In this document: piece by piece, positions 7,837-60,414 of the stretch
Layout: the number at the start of each line of letters is the position of its first letter
Numbering within the stretch: the first letter of the stretch is position 1
Assembly: GCA_905236875.1 (NCBI GenBank)
Contig: CAJOQT010000108.1
Coordinates: forward strand, 17,828 to 81,827
DNA length: 64,000 bases
Direction of reading: 5' to 3'
DNA from: an uncultured Prevotella sp.
GTDB taxonomy: Bacteria; Bacteroidota; Bacteroidia; Bacteroidales; Bacteroidaceae
Program-made: the position numbers and the translations under genes
Notes under the pieces: generated by a model
Database searches by the model: none
Told to the model about the DNA's origin: nothing
The model's input: only the letters and a program-made list of their open reading frames with translations

Positions 7837-7856
7837 TTGTTATTGGTATGTCAACT

Positions 7857-7943
7857 CTGTTGTCTGTTGTCTGTTCTTGCGTCCCTTCGGTAGCAAGCGG
7901 CAAAGCCGAGCGGTCTGTTGTCCGTTGTCTGTTGTCCGTTGTC
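7857..7943. repeat. Family B spacer repeat (TTGCGTCCCTTCGGTAGCAAGCGGCAAAGCCGAGCGGTC + TGTTGTCCGTTGTC array)
   Basis: Near-identical to the tandem copies at 59486-59631; abuts the stop codon of the downstream GNAT gene. Confidence 0.85.
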
Positions 7944-9096
7944 AAATTATTTTCTTGTAACAGCGGCGGCGTTTGTGCTGTTCATAGTCAAAATACTGCC
8001 ACTGACTCTGTACTTTCTCGTTCGTCTCCATCTCGACGTTGGTCTCTCCCCACTTGAAACCATATTTCTGGTACCAGGGGATGAGGTCATAGAAAAACAG
8101 TGCATTGGCTCCCTTCGACCTGTATTCTGGCAGGACGCCGATCAGCATCAGATCGACAATGTCACTCTTGTGGAACTTCAGGGCGCGCACACAGTGCCAC
8201 CAGCCGAAAGGCCAGAGACGTCCGTTATGGCATTTCTGCAGGGCACGTGTCATAGACGAGATGGAGATGCCCACGCCAATCACCTTATGGTCGGGTGTGT
8301 TCCAGTCCTCAATGAGTGTCAGCAGGTTCATGTCCAGCATAGGGAAATACATCTTCAGGTACTCGTCAATCTGTGCCTCTGTCATCTGTGAATAGCCGTA
8401 CAGGTGACCAAAGGTCTGGTTGACCACATCCAGCACCTTACGTCCCATCTGCTCCTTGCCCAGCACCTCCTTGCGCTTTACTTTACGGATGTGCAGGTTG
8501 TAGCGTTTCATGACCAGTTCCGATATCTTCTTCAGTTTTTCAGGTATCCCTTCTTTGGGGACAAATACCTTGAACTCCACATAGTCATTATCCTTGTTCC
8601 AGCCGCCAAGCTCCTCCATGTGGCGTGGGTAATAGTCGTAGTTATAGATAGTGGCCATGGTGCCCAGCTGGTCAAAGCCTTCAATCAGCATACCCTCCTG
8701 ATCCATATCCGTGAACCCCAGAGGCCCGACAATCTCTGTCATGCCTTTGCTGCGTCCCCATTCGATAACAGCATCCAGAAGGGCCTTTGAGACTTCAATG
8801 TCGTCAATGAAGTCAATCCATCCGAACCGTACGCTCTTCCTTTCCCAACGCTCGTTGGCACGCTTGTTGATGATACCGGCTATACGCCCTACCAGTTTGT
8901 TGTCCTTATATGCCAGAAAATACTCTGCCTCGCAAAACTCAAAGGCAGCATTCTTGTCCTTGCTCAAGGTGTGTAGCTCGTCACTATACAAGTTGGGGGC
9001 GTCGTATTGATTCCCTTTGTACAGGTCATAATGAAACTGGATGAAAGCATCAAGTTCTTTCTTGCTGGTGACTTTCCTGATTTCTACTGATGACAT
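7942..9096 (-). CDS. GNAT-like N-acetyltransferase family protein
   Basis: 384 aa; VEIRKVTSKKELDAFIQFHYDLYKGNQYDAPNLYSDELHTL; YLAYKDNKLVGRIAGIINKRANERW. Confidence 0.7.
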   Translation of the reverse strand: MSSVEIRKVTSKKELDAFIQFHYDLYKGNQYDAPNLYSDELHTLSKDKNAAFEFCEAEYFLAYKDNKLVGRIAGIINKRANERWERKSVRFGWIDFIDDIEVSKALLDAVIEWGRSKGMTEIVGPLGFTDMDQEGMLIEGFDQLGTMATIYNYDYYPRHMEELGGWNKDNDYVEFKVFVPKEGIPEKLKKISELVMKRYNLHIRKVKRKEVLGKEQMGRKVLDVVNQTFGHLYGYSQMTEAQIDEYLKMYFPMLDMNLLTLIEDWNTPDHKVIGVGISISSMTRALQKCHNGRLWPFGWWHCVRALKFHKSDIVDLMLIGVLPEYRSKGANALFFYDLIPWYQKYGFKWGETNVEMETNEKVQSQWQYFDYEQHKRRRCYKKII

Positions 9097-45480: not shown

Positions 45481-47304
45481 ATGATCAAGAAAAGCAAAGT
45501 ATCTGGTGCCATCCTCTATGGAAGCCTGTTGGTTTTCATATCGTTTGTAGTATATATATTATACATCAATTTAGAGGTTTTCTATACGGCACACGACCGT
45601 TCCGAATTCATCTTCGGAGCGCCTTTCTTCCATTCACTCATGTCGAAGCCCTTTGGCCTGATGCAGTATGTGGGAGCCTGGCTCACGCAGCTATGCTATA
45701 GGCCGTCTTTAGGTGCGAGTGTGATGATGGTTATATGGATTCTCATATTCTATGTGGGCGCCAAGGCTTTCCGTTTAGAGGGAAATGCTTCCGCATTGAT
45801 GCTCTTGCCTATTGCCTGTCTGCTCACATCGGTTGTCGATCTGGGCTATTGGATTTATATCTCCACCATCAGAGGCTACTGGTTCTCGCAGTCGGTAGGC
45901 TATCTCGTCATGCTGCTGCTCTTGTGGGTAGCACGTTGCACCCCGCGTAAGTGGCATCTTGCATGGTATTTATTGGGTGTTTGTGTTTATCCGGTGCTTG
46001 GATGGTTTGCTTTGCTTTTCGTTTTATGTCTTGCGCTAATCGAGAAACCTACTTGGCGCGAGTTATTGGGCATATTCCTGCTTTTCTTTACTGCCAGCAT
46101 CTGGCATAGTCAGCTCTATTCAAATCTGAAGGCCGACGATGTCCTGATGGCGGGTTTTCCTCGTTTCGAGACTCCAATGGACTCAAGCAAGCATCTCTCC
46201 ATCCCGTTCTGGGTGCTTGGTGCAGTCTCTGTACTTATTCCACTTATTGAGAGGTTAGTGGTTAGAGGTAAGTTGTTAAAGAATAGTACTGCCGCAGTGT
46301 CTTCTCTCACCTCTCACCTCTTACCTCTTACCACTTGCATTGCAGGCATAGCCTTTACCTCGTCACTCATGTACTATGACAGGAACTATATTAATGAGAT
46401 GCGTATGGTACGCTATGCTTCCGACGACAACTGGCAGGCAGTTCTTCGCATAGCAGAAGCAGATAAAGAGCCGACCGGTACGATGGTTTTTCTCAAGAAT
46501 GTAGCGCTGATGAATGAAGGCGGCTTGCTCGACCGTTCGTTCAAATTAGGCAACGATGCAGTCGATATTAACAACCCCGATTCGCTCCATGTCACCCTTT
46601 TGGACATAGCATCGCCTCTGGTTTATTATAACTATGGCATGATGAATGAGGCCATTCGCCTGAATTTCGAGAATGCCATACAAGCAGGATTCTCGCCCTT
46701 CTACTTGAAGATGCTTGCCCGCTGTGCCCTGGCTGTAGGAGATAAGAAACTGGTGGAGCGCTATACCACCATATTGCACCATAGTCCATTTTACAAAAAC
46801 TGGCAACCGGCTCCGGTCACAGAAAAGATAAAGGAACTGCAGAAATGCTATCCTGATGAGCTCACTGGTGTTGAGAACAGTGAGAGTTATCTTGTCAATG
46901 GCATCAGTCTCTGGTACGAGTCCGATAGTAAAGTGGCTTCGGAACAGGCGTTGTTCTATTCCTTGATACGTTGCGACTCACGTCGCTTCTGGCCCTCGTT
47001 GCGCAACTATGTGAAGTTGCATCTCAACGAGGAATTTCCCTTGCACGCCATGGAGGCTTACATTCTGTTTATGGATAAAGCCCCGGAAGAAAAACGCATG
47101 ATGCTCCCTGTCGAGCAGTCTGTTTACGAACGCTACAAACGGTTCTGGGTGGTTTTGGAAGAAAAGGCGAAGCCTGGGATGACAGTTCAAAAAGTTGGTG
47201 AAGAAATGCGTCAGGAATTTGGAGATACCTACTGGTGGTACAACATCTTCGGAAGGAAACCTCTTAATTTATCCGGCAATATTGGTCACGAAGTTCAATC
47301 GTAA
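45481..47304 (+). CDS. DUF6057 family membrane protein (multi-TM N-terminus, helical soluble C-terminus), copy 1
   Basis: 607 aa; many TM helices then TPR-like region; paralogous in layout to 48877-50451. Confidence 0.65.
   Translation: MIKKSKVSGAILYGSLLVFISFVVYILYINLEVFYTAHDRSEFIFGAPFFHSLMSKPFGLMQYVGAWLTQLCYRPSLGASVMMVIWILIFYVGAKAFRLEGNASALMLLPIACLLTSVVDLGYWIYISTIRGYWFSQSVGYLVMLLLLWVARCTPRKWHLAWYLLGVCVYPVLGWFALLFVLCLALIEKPTWRELLGIFLLFFTASIWHSQLYSNLKADDVLMAGFPRFETPMDSSKHLSIPFWVLGAVSVLIPLIERLVVRGKLLKNSTAAVSSLTSHLLPLTTCIAGIAFTSSLMYYDRNYINEMRMVRYASDDNWQAVLRIAEADKEPTGTMVFLKNVALMNEGGLLDRSFKLGNDAVDINNPDSLHVTLLDIASPLVYYNYGMMNEAIRLNFENAIQAGFSPFYLKMLARCALAVGDKKLVERYTTILHHSPFYKNWQPAPVTEKIKELQKCYPDELTGVENSESYLVNGISLWYESDSKVASEQALFYSLIRCDSRRFWPSLRNYVKLHLNEEFPLHAMEAYILFMDKAPEEKRMMLPVEQSVYERYKRFWVVLEEKAKPGMTVQKVGEEMRQEFGDTYWWYNIFGRKPLNLSGNIGHEVQS
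46248..46336. repeat. Inverted word-array element in frame inside DUF6057 copy 1
   Basis: gagaggttagtggttagaggtaag ... ctctcacctctcacctcttacctcttaccac; encodes RLVVRGKLLKNSTAAVSSLTSHLLPLTT. Confidence 0.7.
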
Positions 47305-47310
47305 GAAATT

Positions 47311-48876
47311 ATGAAAAGATATATTCATTCCTACATCATGTTGTTGGCTGCGGTCGTGTTGCTCATGCCATCATGTGCGAAGCATCCCTCTGTGCCCTCT
47401 TCATCCTCAGTGTGCTCTGTGCTCCCACCTATCTTCCCCGATTATTGCAATGTCACCGTGCCTTGCAACATTGCGCCGCTCAACTTCATGCTTCCGGCTG
47501 ACCAGTATAAAGAATGTGTGGCACGTCTCACCACGCCCGATGGCCAGCAGCAGACCTACGGCAGTGGTGTGAAGGTGCAGATACCCGAATCGGAATGGCA
47601 TGCCATGCTTGATGCCTCGAAGGGCAAGAGCATCAAGGTAGAGGTCTGGGGACAGAAAGAAGACCAGTGGCTGTCGTTCCGTCCGTTTGAGATACATGTT
47701 GCCGAACAGCCTATCGACGAATATCTGTCGTATCGCCTTATCGAACCGTCGTATGTCGCATGGACCTACATGGAAATCGCCCAGCGCAATATTACCACGT
47801 TCGAGGAGACACAGATTTTCAACAATGAGATAACCATGAACAACAATAGGATAGGCCAGTGCATCAACTGCCACAGCTATCAGAACTACAAGACCGACAA
47901 CATGCTCTTCCATGTGCGTCTTGCTAATGCCGGTACCGTTATTGTGAACGATGGTAAGGTCTCGAGAGTCAATATGAAGCGCGACTATACCATCTCTGGA
48001 GGTGTCTATCCGGCATGGCATCCAACAGCCAAGCTGATAGCCTTCTCGACCAATAAGACACGGCAGGGATTCCATACGTTAAATCCCAACAAGATTGAGG
48101 TATATGACATGGCCAGCGATATGATCCTCTACGATGTGGAGACCGACTCGGTGAGCATCGTCAGCAATGATTCAACGCTTCTGGAAGTGTATCCTACCTG
48201 GTCGCCCGACGGCAACTACCTCTATTACTGTAAGTCTGTTCCGCTTCCTGAAGAAATGCGCGACAAGGATATCCGCACCACCTACCCGAAAATACAGTAT
48301 AACCTCTATCGCCGTTCGTTTGATTTGGCATCGCACGGCTTTGGTGATGAGGAACTCGTCTATGATGCAGCATCGTCCGACAAGAGCGTCTCGTTGCCCC
48401 GCATCAGTCCCGACGGCCGCTATCTGCTGTTTGCCTTGGGACAGTATGGCTGTTTCCATAGCCGTCACCATGATGCAGACATTGTCTGTATCCCGTTGGA
48501 ATCCAAAACCTCCCCCAACCCCTCCCAAGGAGGAGAGCAGAGTTCCTCCCCTTCGGGAAGGTTAGGAGAGGCTCTTCTTGATCCTGCTACAGCTCTCGAT
48601 CTCACCCTCCTCAATAGCGATGGCTATTCAGACAGCTATCCCTCATGGTCGAGCAACGGACATTGGATTATGCTTGCCAGCCGTCGTGACGATGACAACT
48701 ACAGTCGTGTCTATTTTGCCTATTTCAACAATGGAAAAGTTGAGAAGGCCTTCCTGTTGCCGCAGGAAGACCCCGAACTGCATATCAGCCTTCTGAAGAG
48801 CTATAACCGTCCGGAGTTCATGGTAGAGCCTGTCAAGATCAGCGTCGAGGAATTTAGCCGAGTGTTTGATAAGTAG
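47311..48876 (+). CDS. Lipoprotein with CxxCH motif and TolB/WD40-like beta-propeller repeats, copy 1
   Basis: Lipobox VVLLMPSCAKHPS; GQCINCHSYQNYKTDN (CxxCH); PAWHPTAKLIAFSTN, PTWSPDGNYLYYCKS, PRISPDGRYLLFALG, PSWSSNGHWIMLASRRDD. Confidence 0.75.
   Translation: MKRYIHSYIMLLAAVVLLMPSCAKHPSVPSSSSVCSVLPPIFPDYCNVTVPCNIAPLNFMLPADQYKECVARLTTPDGQQQTYGSGVKVQIPESEWHAMLDASKGKSIKVEVWGQKEDQWLSFRPFEIHVAEQPIDEYLSYRLIEPSYVAWTYMEIAQRNITTFEETQIFNNEITMNNNRIGQCINCHSYQNYKTDNMLFHVRLANAGTVIVNDGKVSRVNMKRDYTISGGVYPAWHPTAKLIAFSTNKTRQGFHTLNPNKIEVYDMASDMILYDVETDSVSIVSNDSTLLEVYPTWSPDGNYLYYCKSVPLPEEMRDKDIRTTYPKIQYNLYRRSFDLASHGFGDEELVYDAASSDKSVSLPRISPDGRYLLFALGQYGCFHSRHHDADIVCIPLESKTSPNPSQGGEQSSSPSGRLGEALLDPATALDLTLLNSDGYSDSYPSWSSNGHWIMLASRRDDDNYSRVYFAYFNNGKVEKAFLLPQEDPELHISLLKSYNRPEFMVEPVKISVEEFSRVFDK
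48506..48575. repeat. Family A GC-rich palindromic element in frame inside CxxCH/TolB copy 1
   Basis: cctcccccaacccctcccaaggaggagagcagagttcctccccttcgggaaggttaggagaggctc encodes TSPNPSQGGEQSSSPSGRLGEA. Confidence 0.85.
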
Positions 48877-50451
48877 TTGGGAATGAAGCATCTGCGTGGT
48901 TTATATACGTTCATGTTCGGTGTGGCGGTCCTGCTCTTTTTTGGACTGGCCTATCCGCACCACCTGCACTATCAGGAACAGTTTCAGCTATTTCTCTTCG
49001 ACAGCACCTATGTGTGGGAGATTGTGCGTCTGCCAGGCGGCATCGCTGACCTGTTGGGACGCTTCTGCACACAATTTTTCCTTTTTGCCTGGTTCGGTGC
49101 TATAATTATTGCGCTGCTGCTCTCGTTGGTACAGTTGCTGACGCTTCGCCTGATCAGTTCTTCATTCTCCATTCTCCATTCTCAATTATTCTACGGACTG
49201 AGCTTTGTGCCTTCCTTCCTGCTCTGGCTCTTCCTGCTCGACGAGAATGCACTTCTGGGTGGTGTCTGGGCAGTACTGCTCACGCTCCTTGCTGCTTGGG
49301 GCTTCGACCAGACGGCTATGCGACAAACCCGTTGGACGCGGCGTATGCTACTCATTGCCGCCGTTCCCATTCTCTATTGGATGGTGGGGCCAGTCTGCAT
49401 CGTGTTCTTCCTCCTGCAGGTTTTGAGGGCTCATGGGACTCGTGGGGAAAATGAGACCACCGGGACTGTTGCATGGTATTATGGCGCGTTTGTGCTTTTG
49501 GCTATCATGCTTGTCATACTGTCATCTTATGTCCCCGTACCAGCCGACAAGCTTTGGACTGGCATACATTACTATCGCTATCCGACAATAGTTCCTGTCC
49601 TGTTATGGTCTGCGGCTCTGTCTGTCTTTGTTGTTGCACTCATTGTTCGTGTTTTTCATAAGTCGAAAGATGCCTCGGCTCGTCCTGTTGTGACGCTTGC
49701 CTCCTTTGTGTTAGTGTCCGTAGTTATGGGGTTTTTCGTATGGAAGAACAGCAACTTCAGGGCAGAAAAGGTGATGCAATATGACTTCATGGCCTGTCAC
49801 CAGCAATGGAACCGTATCCTTCAAACCGTCAGTGCTGAAAAGCCTAACAATCAAATTGGGGTTACGGTACAGAATCTGGCCTTAGCCATGCACGGAATGC
49901 TCGCTGAACACCTGTTCGAATATAACCAGAACGGTATTCTGGGTCTTTTGCCCGATGTCCAGAGCGATGCGACGAGTCCTATGCCTACAGCCGAGGCCTT
50001 CTATCAGTTGGGTATGATAAATGTTGCTCAGCGAACGGTCTTCGAAGCACAGGAAGCGATTCTTGATTTCCAGAAAAGTGGCCGCTGCTACAAGCGGCTG
50101 GCGCAGACCAACTTGATTAATGGCAAATACGAAGTGGCCTGTAAATATCTCATGGCGTTACAAAAGACCCTCTTCTATCGTGATTGGGCCAATGAAACAC
50201 TACAGTTGTTGGGAAATGAAGAGGCGATAGCCAAGCATCCCGAATACGGACCTCTGCGCCAGTATGCCTATCATAATGACTTTTACTTCAGTGACCATGT
50301 GACGCCTGAGATGCTGGAATGTCTCTATTACGGTAACCAGGACAATCACCTGGCCTTCCAGTATCTGATGGCCTACTACATGCTGACGGGCGATCGTGAA
50401 GGCTACACCAAACTGATGGAAGAGGTGAGAAGTAAGAGGGAAGATGTATGA
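48877..50451 (+). CDS. DUF6057 family membrane protein, copy 2
   Basis: 524 aa; same architecture as 45481-47304; likely ATG at 48883 (MKHLRGLYTFMFG). Confidence 0.65.
   Translation: MGMKHLRGLYTFMFGVAVLLFFGLAYPHHLHYQEQFQLFLFDSTYVWEIVRLPGGIADLLGRFCTQFFLFAWFGAIIIALLLSLVQLLTLRLISSSFSILHSQLFYGLSFVPSFLLWLFLLDENALLGGVWAVLLTLLAAWGFDQTAMRQTRWTRRMLLIAAVPILYWMVGPVCIVFFLLQVLRAHGTRGENETTGTVAWYYGAFVLLAIMLVILSSYVPVPADKLWTGIHYYRYPTIVPVLLWSAALSVFVVALIVRVFHKSKDASARPVVTLASFVLVSVVMGFFVWKNSNFRAEKVMQYDFMACHQQWNRILQTVSAEKPNNQIGVTVQNLALAMHGMLAEHLFEYNQNGILGLLPDVQSDATSPMPTAEAFYQLGMINVAQRTVFEAQEAILDFQKSGRCYKRLAQTNLINGKYEVACKYLMALQKTLFYRDWANETLQLLGNEEAIAKHPEYGPLRQYAYHNDFYFSDHVTPEMLECLYYGNQDNHLAFQYLMAYYMLTGDREGYTKLMEEVRSKREDV
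49160..49190. repeat. (attctcc)n word array in frame inside DUF6057 copy 2
   Basis: cttcattctccattctccattctcaattattc encodes SSFSILHSQLF. Confidence 0.7.
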
Positions 50452-50497
50452 TGTAAGATGGATGAAGTAAGATGGAAGAAGTAAAGATGAAAGAGAT
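50419..50497. repeat. Word array (gatgaagtaagatgg) spanning the junction between DUF6057 copy 2 and CxxCH/TolB copy 2
   Basis: gtgagaagtaagagggaagatgtatgatgtaagatggatgaagtaagatggaagaagtaaagatgaaagag. Confidence 0.65.
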
Positions 50498-52133
50498 AAT
50501 ATATATAATAAGGTGTTTGGTGTTGGCTGTTGGCTGTTGGCTGTTGGCAGCTTGCACGGAGACAGTCAGTGATGCACGGCAGGAGGCCACTCAGCCTCAG
50601 ATCTATCCCGACTACCTCGGTGTCACCATACCCGTGAATATTGCTCCTCTCAACTTTTGCATGGCAGATGAGTCGGCTTTGCGTATTGATGCCGTCATTA
50701 CCGACAGCCACGGACATAGCCTGCACAGCCAAGGCGAAGAATCTGTTGACTTCGACCTTGACGACTGGCACGACCTGCTCCATCTACTCTCCTCGGGGAG
50801 GTCGGGAGGGGGTCTTGACTCGCTCACCGTTACTGTCTCTGCCAAGTACGACGATGGTTGGCACACCTATCGTCCGTTCACCATCTACGTCAGTCCTGAC
50901 AGCATTGACTATGGTATCTGCTACCGTCTGATTGAGCCAGGCTATGAGGTGTGGAGCAAGATGGGCATTTATGAGCGCGATCTGTCTTCGTTCGATGAGC
51001 GACCGTTGATTGAGAATACACAGTTCGAAGGTTGTGTAAACTGTCATAGTTTCAACCGAGGCAACCCTGCCGATATGAGCCTTCATATCCGTGGCCCGCA
51101 TGGTGCCACGCTGCTGCGTCACTCCCTCTCCTTCGGGGAGGGGCAGGGGAGGGGCTCCCTGACAGCTTACAACACCAAGACCGACCAGACGCTCGGCTTC
51201 TGTGTCTATCCCTACTGGCATCCCTCGGGTCGCTATATTGCCTATTCCACCAATACCACGAGACAGTTGTTTCACAGTGCCGACCCCAACCGTATTGAGG
51301 TCTTCGATGAAGCCTCCGATATCTTGGTCTATGATGTTGAGAAAAACGAGCTCCTGCTGTCGCCCCTCCTCAAGCAAGATTCTATCTACGAGACCTATCC
51401 CGTATTCTCGGCTGACGGCCGTTCCCTCTATTTCTGTGCAGCAGGAAAGAGTGTAGAGAGTAGAGTTGATAGTTTAGAGTTTCCTTCCGGAGTCCCTGAA
51501 GGTGAGGGAAAGGCGGAAGCAAACTCTACACTCTACACTCTCAACTCTCAACTTAATGAGATCCGTTATAATCTCTACCGCATTGATTTTGATCCTGCAA
51601 CGGGTACCTTCGGCAACCGTATAGACACTATTGTCGATGCCGCACATGGTGCCCCCCTCTCCTCCCCACGGGGAGGTCGGGAGGGGGTCTCCGTCTCCTT
51701 CCCCCGTCCTTCCTACGACGGTCGCTTCCTTTGCTATACACTCTCCGACTACGGACAGTTCAGCATCTGGCATCATGAGGCTGACCTCTGGTTGCTCGAC
51801 CTCGCTACAGGCGAGAGTCGTCCCATGGATGGGGCAAACTCTGACGATACGGAGTCGTTCCACAACTGGAGCACCAACTCCCGCTGGCTCGTGCTCAGCT
51901 CCCGTCGCGACGATGGCCTCTTTACGCGGCCCTATTTCTGTCACGTTGATGCCAAGGGTGTTGTCAGCAAGGCCTTTATGCTGCCGCAGCGGAATCCGCG
52001 TCGTTTCTATCGTGAGCGTTTCCTGTCCTTCAATGTGCCCGAATTCATCATTGGCCCGACCCGCTTCGATGGTCATGAGGCCAGTCAGCTTATCAACGCT
52101 GAATATCGCAAGAACTTTGGCGTGCGTAAGTAA
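50487..52133 (+). CDS. Lipoprotein with CxxCH motif and TolB-like beta-propeller repeats, copy 2
   Basis: MKEIIYIIRCLVLAVGCWLLAACTET lipobox; EGCVNCHSFNRGNPADM; PYWHPSGRYIAYSTNTTRQLFHSADPNRIEVFDEASDILVYDV parallels copy 1. The track start 50472 lies inside the repeat array. Confidence 0.75.
   Translation: MKEIIYIIRCLVLAVGCWLLAACTETVSDARQEATQPQIYPDYLGVTIPVNIAPLNFCMADESALRIDAVITDSHGHSLHSQGEESVDFDLDDWHDLLHLLSSGRSGGGLDSLTVTVSAKYDDGWHTYRPFTIYVSPDSIDYGICYRLIEPGYEVWSKMGIYERDLSSFDERPLIENTQFEGCVNCHSFNRGNPADMSLHIRGPHGATLLRHSLSFGEGQGRGSLTAYNTKTDQTLGFCVYPYWHPSGRYIAYSTNTTRQLFHSADPNRIEVFDEASDILVYDVEKNELLLSPLLKQDSIYETYPVFSADGRSLYFCAAGKSVESRVDSLEFPSGVPEGEGKAEANSTLYTLNSQLNEIRYNLYRIDFDPATGTFGNRIDTIVDAAHGAPLSSPRGGREGVSVSFPRPSYDGRFLCYTLSDYGQFSIWHHEADLWLLDLATGESRPMDGANSDDTESFHNWSTNSRWLVLSSRRDDGLFTRPYFCHVDAKGVVSKAFMLPQRNPRRFYRERFLSFNVPEFIIGPTRFDGHEASQLINAEYRKNFGVRK
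50521..50548 (+). repeat. Four perfect tandem TGTTGGC heptamers encoding the lipoprotein signal h-region/lipobox
   Basis: tgttggc x4, preceded by near-copy tgtttgg; encodes LAVGCWLLA. Confidence 0.9.
50784..50818. repeat. Family A element in frame in CxxCH/TolB copy 2
   Basis: ctactctcctcggggaggtcgggagggggtcttgac encodes LLSSGRSGGGLD. Confidence 0.75.
51120..51161. repeat. Family A element in frame in CxxCH/TolB copy 2
   Basis: cactccctctccttcggggaggggcaggggaggggctccct encodes HSLSFGEGQGRGSL. Confidence 0.85.
51449..51555. repeat. Composite inverted word-array element in frame in CxxCH/TolB copy 2
   Basis: gtgtagagagtagagttgatagtttagagttt ... aaactctacactctacactctcaactctcaac around a ccttccggagtccctgaaggtgaggg core. 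Confidence 0.8.
51652..51692. repeat. Family A element in frame in CxxCH/TolB copy 2
   Basis: cccccctctcctccccacggggaggtcgggagggggtctcc encodes APLSSPRGGREGVS. Confidence 0.8.
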
Positions 52134-52210
52134 AGTGACATGCAGCAAGTGAGTCTGCACCGTTTCCGAAAGGTAAAGGTAGATACTAAAAGATAAAAAG
52201 CAATTATAAG

Positions 52211-52867
52211 ATGAAAAAGTTAGTTTTGTTTATGATGTCTTTGGCAGTTGTCACGATGTTCTACGGCTGTCAGCAGAAGGATCCCAATGAGTGTCGTATT
52301 CACGGTACAGTAGTTGGTGAACAGTATGAAGGTAAGCTGGTTTTCTTGGTGCCGCTAAAGGGTTCTGCCACGTTAGAAACCGTTGACAGTGTGGTTATCA
52401 GGGATGGTAGGTTTGAGTTCAGGGCTGATTCGATGAAGTTGTATAAGATTCTTCTTGACTATCATTTCCGTTATGGTACGCAGTCGTTGTTGGTAGTTGG
52501 TGAACCTGGTGACATCGAAGTCATCATCGACAGTATCAGTCATGGTAAGGGAACGCCTCTGAACGACTCCTTGGAGAAATGGAGGCTTGTGACGGAGCAG
52601 CATAACCAGGTATTTGGCCCGCTGAACCAACGTATTTATCAGGAAAATCTGGCAGGTCATCATGAGGTGGCAGACAGCCTGAGAGCTATCTCTGACAGTA
52701 TCCACCTTGAATATAAGAACTTTACGCGGCAAATGTCAGAGAATCTGCAGCCGGGTGCGTTACACGACTTCCTGAAGAGCTTGTTTCCACTGACTTATCA
52801 GAAGAAGATGCCTGACGGTTCCGTCGTAACGATGGATGCCGATACGAATGAACCAATTAGTGAGTAA
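52211..52867 (+). CDS. DUF4369 domain-containing lipoprotein
   Basis: Lipobox VTMFYGCQQKD; RIHGTVVGEQYEGKLVFLVPLKGSATLETVDSVVIRDGRFEFRAD is typical of the N-terminal DUF4369 domain. Confidence 0.8.
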   Translation: MKKLVLFMMSLAVVTMFYGCQQKDPNECRIHGTVVGEQYEGKLVFLVPLKGSATLETVDSVVIRDGRFEFRADSMKLYKILLDYHFRYGTQSLLVVGEPGDIEVIIDSISHGKGTPLNDSLEKWRLVTEQHNQVFGPLNQRIYQENLAGHHEVADSLRAISDSIHLEYKNFTRQMSENLQPGALHDFLKSLFPLTYQKKMPDGSVVTMDADTNEPISE

Positions 52868-52891
52868 ATGCGGCTGCATTTACTCACTAAT
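52856..52891 (+). terminator. Perfect 16-bp stem hairpin overlapping the stop codon of the DUF4369 gene
   Basis: ATTAGTGAGTAAATGC-ggct-GCATTTACTCACTAAT; no strong T tract. Confidence 0.65.
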
Positions 52892-52937
52892 CATCAATCA
52901 CTAATCTCTCAACTATAAACTCTCAACCCTCAACACA
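52892..52937. repeat. Word array (tctcaac/caatcac) abutting the argF' stop codon
   Basis: catcaatcactaatctctcaactataaactctcaaccctcaacac. Confidence 0.65.
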
Positions 52938-53975
52938 TTAAAGTGCCTCCAGCATCCGTTTGATAACTACCGAACAGCTGATTTCGCGGTTGGCGGCCTC
53001 TGGTATGACAAGACTGTTGGGACTCTCGATAACATCATCGGTGACGATGAGGTTGCGGCGTACGGGCAGACAGTGCATGAACTTGCCGTTGTTCGTCCAT
53101 GACATGTGCTCGGTATCTACTGTCCATGAGCGGTCCTCGCAGGTTATCTTGCCGTAGTCGGCAGGGTTGGTCACGCCGGGGTTGCTCCAGTTCTTGGCGT
53201 AGATGAAGTCTGCACCCTCAAAGGCTTTCTTCTGGTCGTACTCCACACGGGCATTGCCTACAAACTTGGGATCAAGCTCGTAACCCTTGGGGTGGGTGAT
53301 AACGAGATCCACATCAGGGTCAGCATTCATCCACTGTGCAAAACTGTTAGGTACGGCCTGCGGCAATGCACGGCAATGGGGTGCCCAAGTCAGTACGACC
53401 TTGGGAAGAGAACTTCGACCCCCCTCAAGCTCCCCCGAGGGGGAGTGACTGCCACATAGAGAGCCTCCCCTCGGGGAGGTCTGGAGGGGGTTGTACTCCT
53501 TGATCGTTATCAGGTCTGCAAATGCCTGCAAGGGGTGTACGGTAGCTGTCTCCATAGCAAATACTGGACGGCCGGAATATTTGATAAACTGCTGTAGGAC
53601 GGTCTCGGCATAGTCGTATTCGCGGTCAGTAAGCCCGGCGAAGCTTCTTACACCGATAAGGTCGCAGTAGCAGCCCATTACGGGAATCGCCTCCAAGAGA
53701 TGCTCGCTCTTGTCGCCGTCCATGATGACGCCACGTTCTGTCTCGAGCTTCCAGGCACCGGCATTTACGTCCAGCACGATGACGTTCATGCCGAGGTTCA
53801 TGGCAGCCTTCTGTGTCGAGAGGCGGGTGCGCAGACTATTATTGAAGAATATCATCATGAGCGTCTTGTTCTTGCCCAGATGCTGATATTTGAAACGGTC
53901 GTTCTTAATCTCAAAAGCTTCGGCCATCGCCTTGTCCAATGGGCCGATGTCCTGTACGTTGATAAATGATCTCAT
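52938..53975 (-). CDS. argF': N-succinyl/N-acetylornithine carbamoyltransferase (ArgF')
   Basis: MRSFINVQDIGPLDKAMAEAFEIK; FFNNSLRTRLSTQKAAMNLG; TVHPLQAFADLITI; LTWAPHCRALPQAVPNSFAQWM; MHCLPVRRNLIVTDDVIES. Confidence 0.9.
   Translation of the reverse strand: MRSFINVQDIGPLDKAMAEAFEIKNDRFKYQHLGKNKTLMMIFFNNSLRTRLSTQKAAMNLGMNVIVLDVNAGAWKLETERGVIMDGDKSEHLLEAIPVMGCYCDLIGVRSFAGLTDREYDYAETVLQQFIKYSGRPVFAMETATVHPLQAFADLITIKEYNPLQTSPRGGSLCGSHSPSGELEGGRSSLPKVVLTWAPHCRALPQAVPNSFAQWMNADPDVDLVITHPKGYELDPKFVGNARVEYDQKKAFEGADFIYAKNWSNPGVTNPADYGKITCEDRSWTVDTEHMSWTNNGKFMHCLPVRRNLIVTDDVIESPNSLVIPEAANREISCSVVIKRMLEAL
53416..53494. repeat. Double family A element in frame inside argF'
   Basis: On gene strand: CCCCCTCCAGACCTCCCCGAGGGGAGGCTCTCTATGTGGCAGTCACTCCCCCTCGGGGGAGCTTGAGGGGGGTC. 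Confidence 0.9.
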
Positions 53976-53982
53976 AATTTTA

Positions 53983-54108
53983 AAGCCCACCCCAGCCCTC
54001 CCGAAGGGAGGGAGAATGGGTACGATTAATTGTTATTATTATTATCTCAATTCTCTGTTTTCTGCAGGAATCCCTTCCCCCTCCCTTCGGGAGGGCTGGG
54101 GTGGGCTT
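53983..54108. repeat. 126-bp intergenic element bounded by perfect 30-bp inverted repeats (family A)
   Basis: AAGCCCACCCCAGCCCTCCCGAAGGGAGGG (53983-54012) / CCCTCCCTTCGGGAGGGCTGGGGTGGGCTT (54079-54108); fills the proA-argF' spacer. Confidence 0.95.
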
Positions 54109-59485: not shown

Positions 59486-59631
59486 GTCCGTTCTTGCGTC
59501 CCTTCGGTAGCAAGCGGCAAGCCGAGCGGTCCGTTGTCCGTTGTCTGTTGTCCGTTCTTGCGTCCCTTCGGTAGCAAGCGGCAAGCCGAGCGGTCTGTTG
59601 TCCGTTGTCTGTTGTCCGTTGTCCGTTGTCA
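59486..59631. repeat. Family B element: tandem 64-bp near-perfect duplication (63/64) plus TCCGTTGTC array
   Basis: gtccgttcttgcgtcccttcggtagcaagcggcaagccgagcggt[c/t]cgttgtccgttgtctgtt at 59486-59549 and 59550-59613; abuts the proC stop codon. Confidence 0.93.
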
Positions 59632-60414
59632 CTACTTCGCTCCTGCTTTCAGCCCTCGGATGACGGCCGATGTGAAGCCGGCATGCTCCATCTCGTTCAG
59701 TCCCTTGATCGTTACTCCACCAGGAGTCGTCACCAGGTCGATGGCTGCTTCCGGGTGCAGGCCCGAAGCCTCGAGCAGTTCTACGGCTCCCTTCATGGTC
59801 TGCATGACGATGCGTTTGGCATCGTCGGCCTTGAAGCCCAGCTCTACGCCGCCCTCCGATGCTGCCCGCACATAGCGCATGGCGTAGGCGATACCACAGG
59901 AGGCCAGCGTTGTGCCTGCTGCCAGATGCTGCTCGTCGGTGAGAATGGTGCTGCCCATCTCGTCGAAGATGGCCTTCACCTGTTCTGTCTGGTGCTGTAC
60001 TACAGCACCGCACGGTACGAGGAACGTCATTGACGCCATCTCGGCAATGGCGATGTTGGGGATGCAGAGGAAGAGGGGAGGGCATTGCTCGCCCAGCCAC
60101 TCCCTGATGTCGGCCGACTTGACACCGGCGGCAATCACAACGAGCAGCTGCTCCTGTGGGTTCAGCATGTCCTTGATGCCTTTGAGCACGCCTTCCACCA
60201 GCCAGGGCTTGACGACGACACATACGATGCCGGCTCCCTCGACGGCGAGCCGGTTGTCGGTGGTCACGCAGACCCCCTTCGGTGTGAACTTCTCCGCTAC
60301 GGCCGGTGACGGGTCGCTTACGGTAATGTCTTCGTTACGGAAGGTCCTGCCTTTGATGAGTCCCTCAACAATGGCGCCTCCCATAGCTCCCGCTCCAATA
60401 ATCGTTATCTTCAT
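59632..60414 (-). CDS. proC: Pyrroline-5-carboxylate reductase
   Basis: MKITIIGAGAMGGAIVEGLIKG; VKPWLVEGVL; DLVTTPGGVTIKGLNEMEHAGFTSAVIRGL. Confidence 0.96.
   Translation of the reverse strand: MKITIIGAGAMGGAIVEGLIKGRTFRNEDITVSDPSPAVAEKFTPKGVCVTTDNRLAVEGAGIVCVVVKPWLVEGVLKGIKDMLNPQEQLLVVIAAGVKSADIREWLGEQCPPLFLCIPNIAIAEMASMTFLVPCGAVVQHQTEQVKAIFDEMGSTILTDEQHLAAGTTLASCGIAYAMRYVRAASEGGVELGFKADDAKRIVMQTMKGAVELLEASGLHPEAAIDLVTTPGGVTIKGLNEMEHAGFTSAVIRGLKAGAK

Follow-up and report, generated by a model that had tools for sequence, protein, structure and literature searches.

Intragenic REPs are palindromes tagged with GTAG or CGTC that occur in frame within unrelated housekeeping genes, where a loop or linker location has been suggested; a double insertion in one ORF and the occupation of the same recB site in two Xanthomonas species have also been described (Di Nocera et al., 2013, PMC3733652). 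Rickettsia palindromic elements are selfish palindromic DNA of about 150 nt, translated in frame in many unrelated proteins and apparently tolerated by their fold (Ogata et al., 2000, summarized in PMC10969869). REPINs consist of two REP-like palindromes in opposite orientation, separated by a short spacer (PMC3116915). Heptanucleotide tandem repeats are known from Calothrix, Nostoc, Xanthomonas and Beggiatoaceae, and TAACTGA repeats also from five Bacteroidetes; the published repeats are mainly intergenic, with one word per genome (PMC4692102, PMC4679880). A limited literature search found no report of such repeats for Prevotella.

While these four systems are already known, the Prevotella locus presented here, a 64-kb stretch of DNA (the window), adds two interchangeable repeat classes, essential enzymes in which particular loops are hit again and again, and signal-peptide cores built from heptamer arrays. 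Its REP-like family resembles intragenic REPs (PMC3733652) in consisting of 20–40 nt palindromes that lie in frame, singly or as inverted pairs. It differs from them in its intragenic share, roughly one in two of the copies detected by pattern, in codon-level replacement and in the reuse of loops by an unrelated repeat class. A clear GTAG or CGTC tag is also lacking: neither tetranucleotide is conserved among the copies inspected or in the family alignment, and the nearest constant feature to an end tag is GGAGG(N3)GGAGGGGG. Rickettsia palindromic elements are similar in being in frame in unrelated conserved proteins, purifying selection having been tested here for the host gene only, and the Prevotella repeats (30–40 nt, G/C-rich, accompanied by heptamer composites) are set apart from them by length, composition and host lineage. 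The inverted pairs in a paralog of the host gene and in a neighboring carbamoyltransferase gene (Table 1) are like REPINs, whereas a tie to RAYT is not supported here. The heptamer arrays share with published heptanucleotide repeats a period of almost exclusively 7 and dispersal over many loci. In contrast to these, they use many words, 21 of the 49 arrays sampled lie within ORFs, and they form loops, signal-peptide cores and the arms of an inverted composite. The distribution of both classes is probably the outcome of a general repeat invasion filtered by loop tolerance and purifying selection.

Repeat elements in the host gene

The host gene lies in the draft genome of a Prevotella-type bacterium from the rumen (2.65 Mb, 128 contigs, 81% complete). 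Its reading frame is open along the whole length, and its protein carries a lipoprotein-type signal at the N-terminus and a PF07676 (PD40) match (E=5e-6). Because dN/dS is 0.09–0.14 against four orthologs, the gene is functional and under purifying selection, which rules out pseudogene status. An AlphaFold model of moderate confidence was obtained (pLDDT 75.6, pTM 0.75). The protein is only tentatively described as a propeller, since this assignment is carried by PD40 matches and a Foldseek search of the model against the PDB gave weak matches, some of them to propeller proteins with TM below 0.4.

Table 1. Repeat elements and genes discussed in the text; positions refer to the window unless a locus or genome handle precedes them.
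Feature	Position	Strand	Context	Net change	Basis
Host gene	50472–52133	+	lipoprotein-like protein, 553 aa		ORF, CVNCH motif, PD40 (WD40-like propeller repeat)
Period-7/14 array (GATGGAAGAAGTAA)	50414–50495	+	across upstream DUF6057 gene end and host start codon		TRF
TTGGCTG heptamer array	50512–50548	+	signal-peptide hydrophobic core (VLAVGCWLL)		
REP-like element 1 (HLLSSGRSGGGL)	50783–50818	+	replaces GQNRG-type loop codons	+7 aa	
REP-like element 2 (HSLSFGEGQGRGS)	51120–51161	+	replaces QNDG-type loop	+8 aa	
Composite: heptamer arm, palindromic core (TTTCCTTCCG...CGGAAGCAAA), inverted heptamer arm	51449–51555	+	replaces RALPEGSHQ-type loop codons	+27 aa	codon alignment with orthologs
REP-like element 3 (APLSSPRGGREGV)	51652–51692	+	replaces AQHK-type loop	+11 aa	
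Inverted REP pair (REPIN-like)	48506–48575; 48506–48538(-)/48543–48575(+)	+	in frame in paralog (47311–48876)		
Inverted REP pair	53416–53493; 53416–53448(-)/53461–53493(+)	-	in frame in cytosolic carbamoyltransferase gene (52938–53990, minus strand)		
Inverted REP pair	53983–54015(-)/54076–54108(+)				
In-frame heptamer arrays	46304–46336, 49158–49187		neighboring DUF6057 genes (SSLTSHLLPL; FSILHSQLF)		
Larger heptamer arrays	59486–59638, 7855–7944		core with CGGTAGCAAGCGGCAAGCCGAGCGG		
Near-perfect 64-nt tandem pair	59486–59620				
Heptamer arrays	L097:2567–2598, L114:1076–1107		signal-peptide cores		
GTTGTCC arrays	L095:3234–3264, L095:8712–8742, L115:3123–3149		TTDNGQRTTDN-type linkers		
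Three REP copies in one reading frame	G000:C35:8313–8656 (L079)		predicted secreted GH3-type glycosidase gene		
GuaA in several pieces	G059:C3:190293–192203		656-aa open frame		

A sequence-only reading of the locus had proposed that this gene carries four in-frame repeat insertions at linker positions. All four elements were recovered within a few bases of where it had placed them, with the ORF open. They are real additions, since ten orthologs of the same genus (78–85% protein identity) lack these stretches or have different ones. As insertions, however, they need rewording: each stands in place of a short ancestral loop whose flanking codons still align, so that replacement of a few codons seems a better description than clean insertion. 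At element 3, for instance, codon alignment with orthologs shows AQHK-type codons exchanged for HGAPLSSPRGGREGV. No target duplication is visible in the codon alignments of the host-gene elements and the other compared loops. The ancestral codons were presumably lost at insertion and not eroded later, although all comparisons are between species, a kind of data that fits equally with codon loss at the event and with insertion followed by rapid drift of the flanks and the loop. The linker placement was borne out by the AlphaFold model, in which all four inserts fall between predicted secondary-structure elements, element 1 occupying the loop between helix 96–108 and strand 116–126. The other three coincide with stretches of pLDDT below 50 (residues 220–225 at the second insert, 327–351 at the composite, which is the third, and 395–402 at the fourth), values which partly reflect the lack of aligned homologs within the inserts. 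Misassembly is disfavored because other assemblies have related inserts at the same loops.

The three REP-like elements are single copies and do not form inverted pairs; two of them are stop-free in all six frames. A covariance model matches them at 50783–50815 (37.3 bits), 51123–51156 (28.6 bits) and 51658–51690 (43.1 bits), scores which are not independent evidence since the model was trained with these copies, and the independent pattern scan described below is for this reason important. The composite shows lag-7 periodicity and folds far better than shuffled sequences (z −4.3). Only the coding frame is open through it, as stop triplets are moved out of that frame by an irregular word in the left arm.

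Replacement instead of clean insertion and the lack of target duplication would also be expected if the repeats were filler DNA from break repair or template switching, whereby a few codons are deleted and a repeat is pasted in with no dedicated mobile element involved. The presence of two unrelated repeat classes at the same sites is in line with such an origin. Against it stand the conserved consensus of the REP family and the recurrence of the composite, whose core TTTGCTACCG is found again in the orthologs L011, L155 and L165; in L155, the far end carries CGGCAGCAAA. Because architecture and core recur, the composite looks like a defined element, and filler DNA is regarded as a possible but not a probable source. 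The core of two larger heptamer arrays in the window resembles the intragenic composite core, and one of these arrays contains a near-perfect tandem pair (Table 1).

Two further arrays at the 5′ end of the gene had been overlooked by the sequence-only reading, namely the TTGGCTG array of the signal peptide and the period-7/14 array at the start codon. At the place of the latter, the ortholog L007 has a different array of TTAGGAA words, and most other orthologs have none. The signal-peptide cores of the orthologs L013 and L016 are formed by other heptamer arrays at the same place. The words of signal-peptide-core arrays vary between orthologs (TTGGCTG, ATTCACT, TTGGCCT), and arrays of this kind were also seen at two further loci (Table 1). 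The neighboring DUF6057 genes both contain in-frame heptamer arrays.

Both repeat classes across the genome

The REP-like family consists of a palindrome, CCTCCCC-NN-GGGGAGG, followed by YNNGGAGGGGG. A genome-wide pattern scan allowing up to three mismatches yielded 73 copies compared with eight for a reversed control, while the covariance model found at least 132 copies at E<=0.1. The family consensus forms a hairpin, and the family thus has the form of a REP, a short palindrome in many dispersed copies. Inverted pairs with a short spacer, as in REPINs, occur in the family and not among the copies of the host gene. All nine strong REP-model matches in the window lie inside 5.6 kb (48506–54108), a cluster which covers the paralog, the host gene, the carbamoyltransferase gene and the gap beside the latter. 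About 38 of the 73 pattern copies are in frame within ORFs (29 strong and nine weaker cases), and at most one candidate frameshifted copy was found among the remainder. The gene-level census used sampled stretches around REP matches, with gene and signal-peptide calling based on home-made scores.

The elements presumably are, or once were, mobile. Classic REPs are thought to be mobilized by a RAYT/TnpA-REP transposase, and mobilization in trans by such a Y1 HUH enzyme would suit the REP- and REPIN-like appearance of the single palindromes and inverted pairs as well as the presence of one Y1_Tnp protein in genome G000. No REP-model match was found near this Y1 gene, however, in the little flank that was searched. 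Moreover, no Y1_Tnp match was obtained in three REP-rich genomes, G026 (99% complete, 66 strict-pattern copies), G003 (12 copies) and G030 (22 copies), and conversely G002, G010 and G025 have Y1_Tnp and zero copies. Copy number does not track the presence of Y1_Tnp, and mobilization by RAYT is considered unlikely.

Heptamer arrays were searched for in 362 kb of sampled sequence, which is enriched around REPs; 49 arrays were found at lag 7, ten at lag 8 and none at lags 4–6 and 11–13. Markov controls gave zero lag-7 arrays, and the window alone holds ten. A 7-nt tandem unit is therefore over-represented relative to other unit lengths. In three large proteins, arrays of the GTTGTCC word encode linkers before apparent C-terminal sorting domains (Table 1).

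Loop reuse in orthologs and essential enzymes

The sequence-only reading had further suggested that inserts accumulate in this protein, and a set of 84 orthologs agrees with it on this point. The named records belong to Prevotella, Prevotellaceae or other Bacteroidales and are mostly ruminant-derived, and the ORF is intact in all 84. Internal insertions, counted when at least 5 aa long, are present in 25 orthologs; the 46 observations fall at just seven alignment positions, whereas the 44 distinct insert peptides, if placed at random, would fill about 33 of 70 bins. The 46 observations are not all independent, because shared ancestry links some rows, as with L159, L161 and L219, whose GGTCAAT arrays are identical.

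The same loop is taken by unrelated repeat classes. Site 3 holds heptamer composites in the host gene (L001), L155 and L165, a long heptamer array in L197, and REPs in L157, L170 and L187. Site 2 holds REPs in the host gene and L154 and GGTCAAT heptamers in L159, L161 and L219. The loop near residue 445 contains heptamer arrays in L011 and L219, and the paralog within the window has a REP pair there. This pair lies in the loop which carries a heptamer composite in L011. In L154, REP-like inserts are found at the same four sites as in the host gene, and two of the three model matches have the opposite orientation, which points to separate events in the two genes.

Repeated use of the same loops, together with the heptamer arrays that form signal-peptide cores in several orthologs, could mean that inserts are selected for a function, for example altering how loops interact, how fast translation proceeds or how strong the signal peptide is. 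This seems quite improbable considering that 59 of the 84 orthologs have no internal insert, that insert sequences vary widely and that the host proteins are functionally unrelated. The inserts have probably conferred no specific function.

Loop reuse extends to cytosolic enzymes. One loop of the carbamoyltransferase (OTC) has inserts in six of 12 compared genomes: REP pairs in G000 and G067, REPs in G059 and G044, and other sequence in G022 and G028. The site corresponds to the position after residue 162 in the solved transcarbamylase 1JS1. One loop of GuaA has inserts in three of 11 genomes, consisting of a REP in G000, a REP-like sequence in G028 and a TTGTCAA heptamer array in G044, and one TyrS loop has inserts in two of 13. 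In G059, GuaA lies within a long open frame and matches in several pieces (Table 1), which suggests multiple inserts.

Exported proteins and tolerance of inserts

The same reading had viewed exported proteins as a special accumulation hotspot, with loops that tolerate inserts, or benefit from them, more than cytosolic ones. In its favor, the host gene and its paralog encode lipoproteins and several other hosts are secreted glycosidases. The enrichment test did not sustain this proposal: 13 of the 33 hosts are predicted to be exported, compared with 62 of the 180 background proteins (p=0.69), and a length-weighted expectation of exported hosts is 44%. In-frame REPs are in fact mostly hosted by cytosolic housekeeping enzymes. 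GuaA, TyrS, MurA, Mfd, PrmC, SufB, MurF-Alr, RNase R and the neighboring OTC all count against a preference for export, and the hosts also include the CCA-adding enzyme, NuoN, MiaA, LpxB and RecO. An exported-protein hotspot is thus very improbable. A predicted secreted GH3-type glycosidase gene has three REP copies in one reading frame (Table 1).

General repeat invasion, filtered by loop tolerance and purifying selection, would instead proceed from the two dispersed repeat classes in this genome and its relatives, the 30–40 nt REP-like palindromes, single or as inverted pairs, and the heptamer arrays, sometimes arranged as arm, palindromic core and inverted arm. Such repeats would land inside genes and between genes alike. 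For an intragenic copy to persist, its net length would have to be divisible by three, its frame free of stops and its location a signal peptide or a tolerant surface loop; purifying selection would remove the remainder. The REP sequence itself may favor persistence, given the stop-free frames of two host-gene copies. The host gene family would offer about six tolerant loops, and the host gene may in this manner have collected its four inserts. A broader proposal, which we put forward as speculative and rather doubtful, traces both the REP-like palindromes and the heptamer arrays of rumen Prevotella to a single unrecognized DNA process that swaps out a few codons at every event. Throughout the genus, this process would be a leading cause of changes in loop length and of newly formed signal-peptide cores in essential proteins.

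These comparisons provide a view at DNA resolution of how short dispersed repeats alter conserved proteins, and they map which loops are naturally tolerant in GuaA, TyrS, OTC and the lipoprotein family. They point to an unexplained generator of period-7 repeats, and they make it possible to test whether repeat insertion is what drives the evolution of loops and the turnover of signal peptides in gut Bacteroidota.
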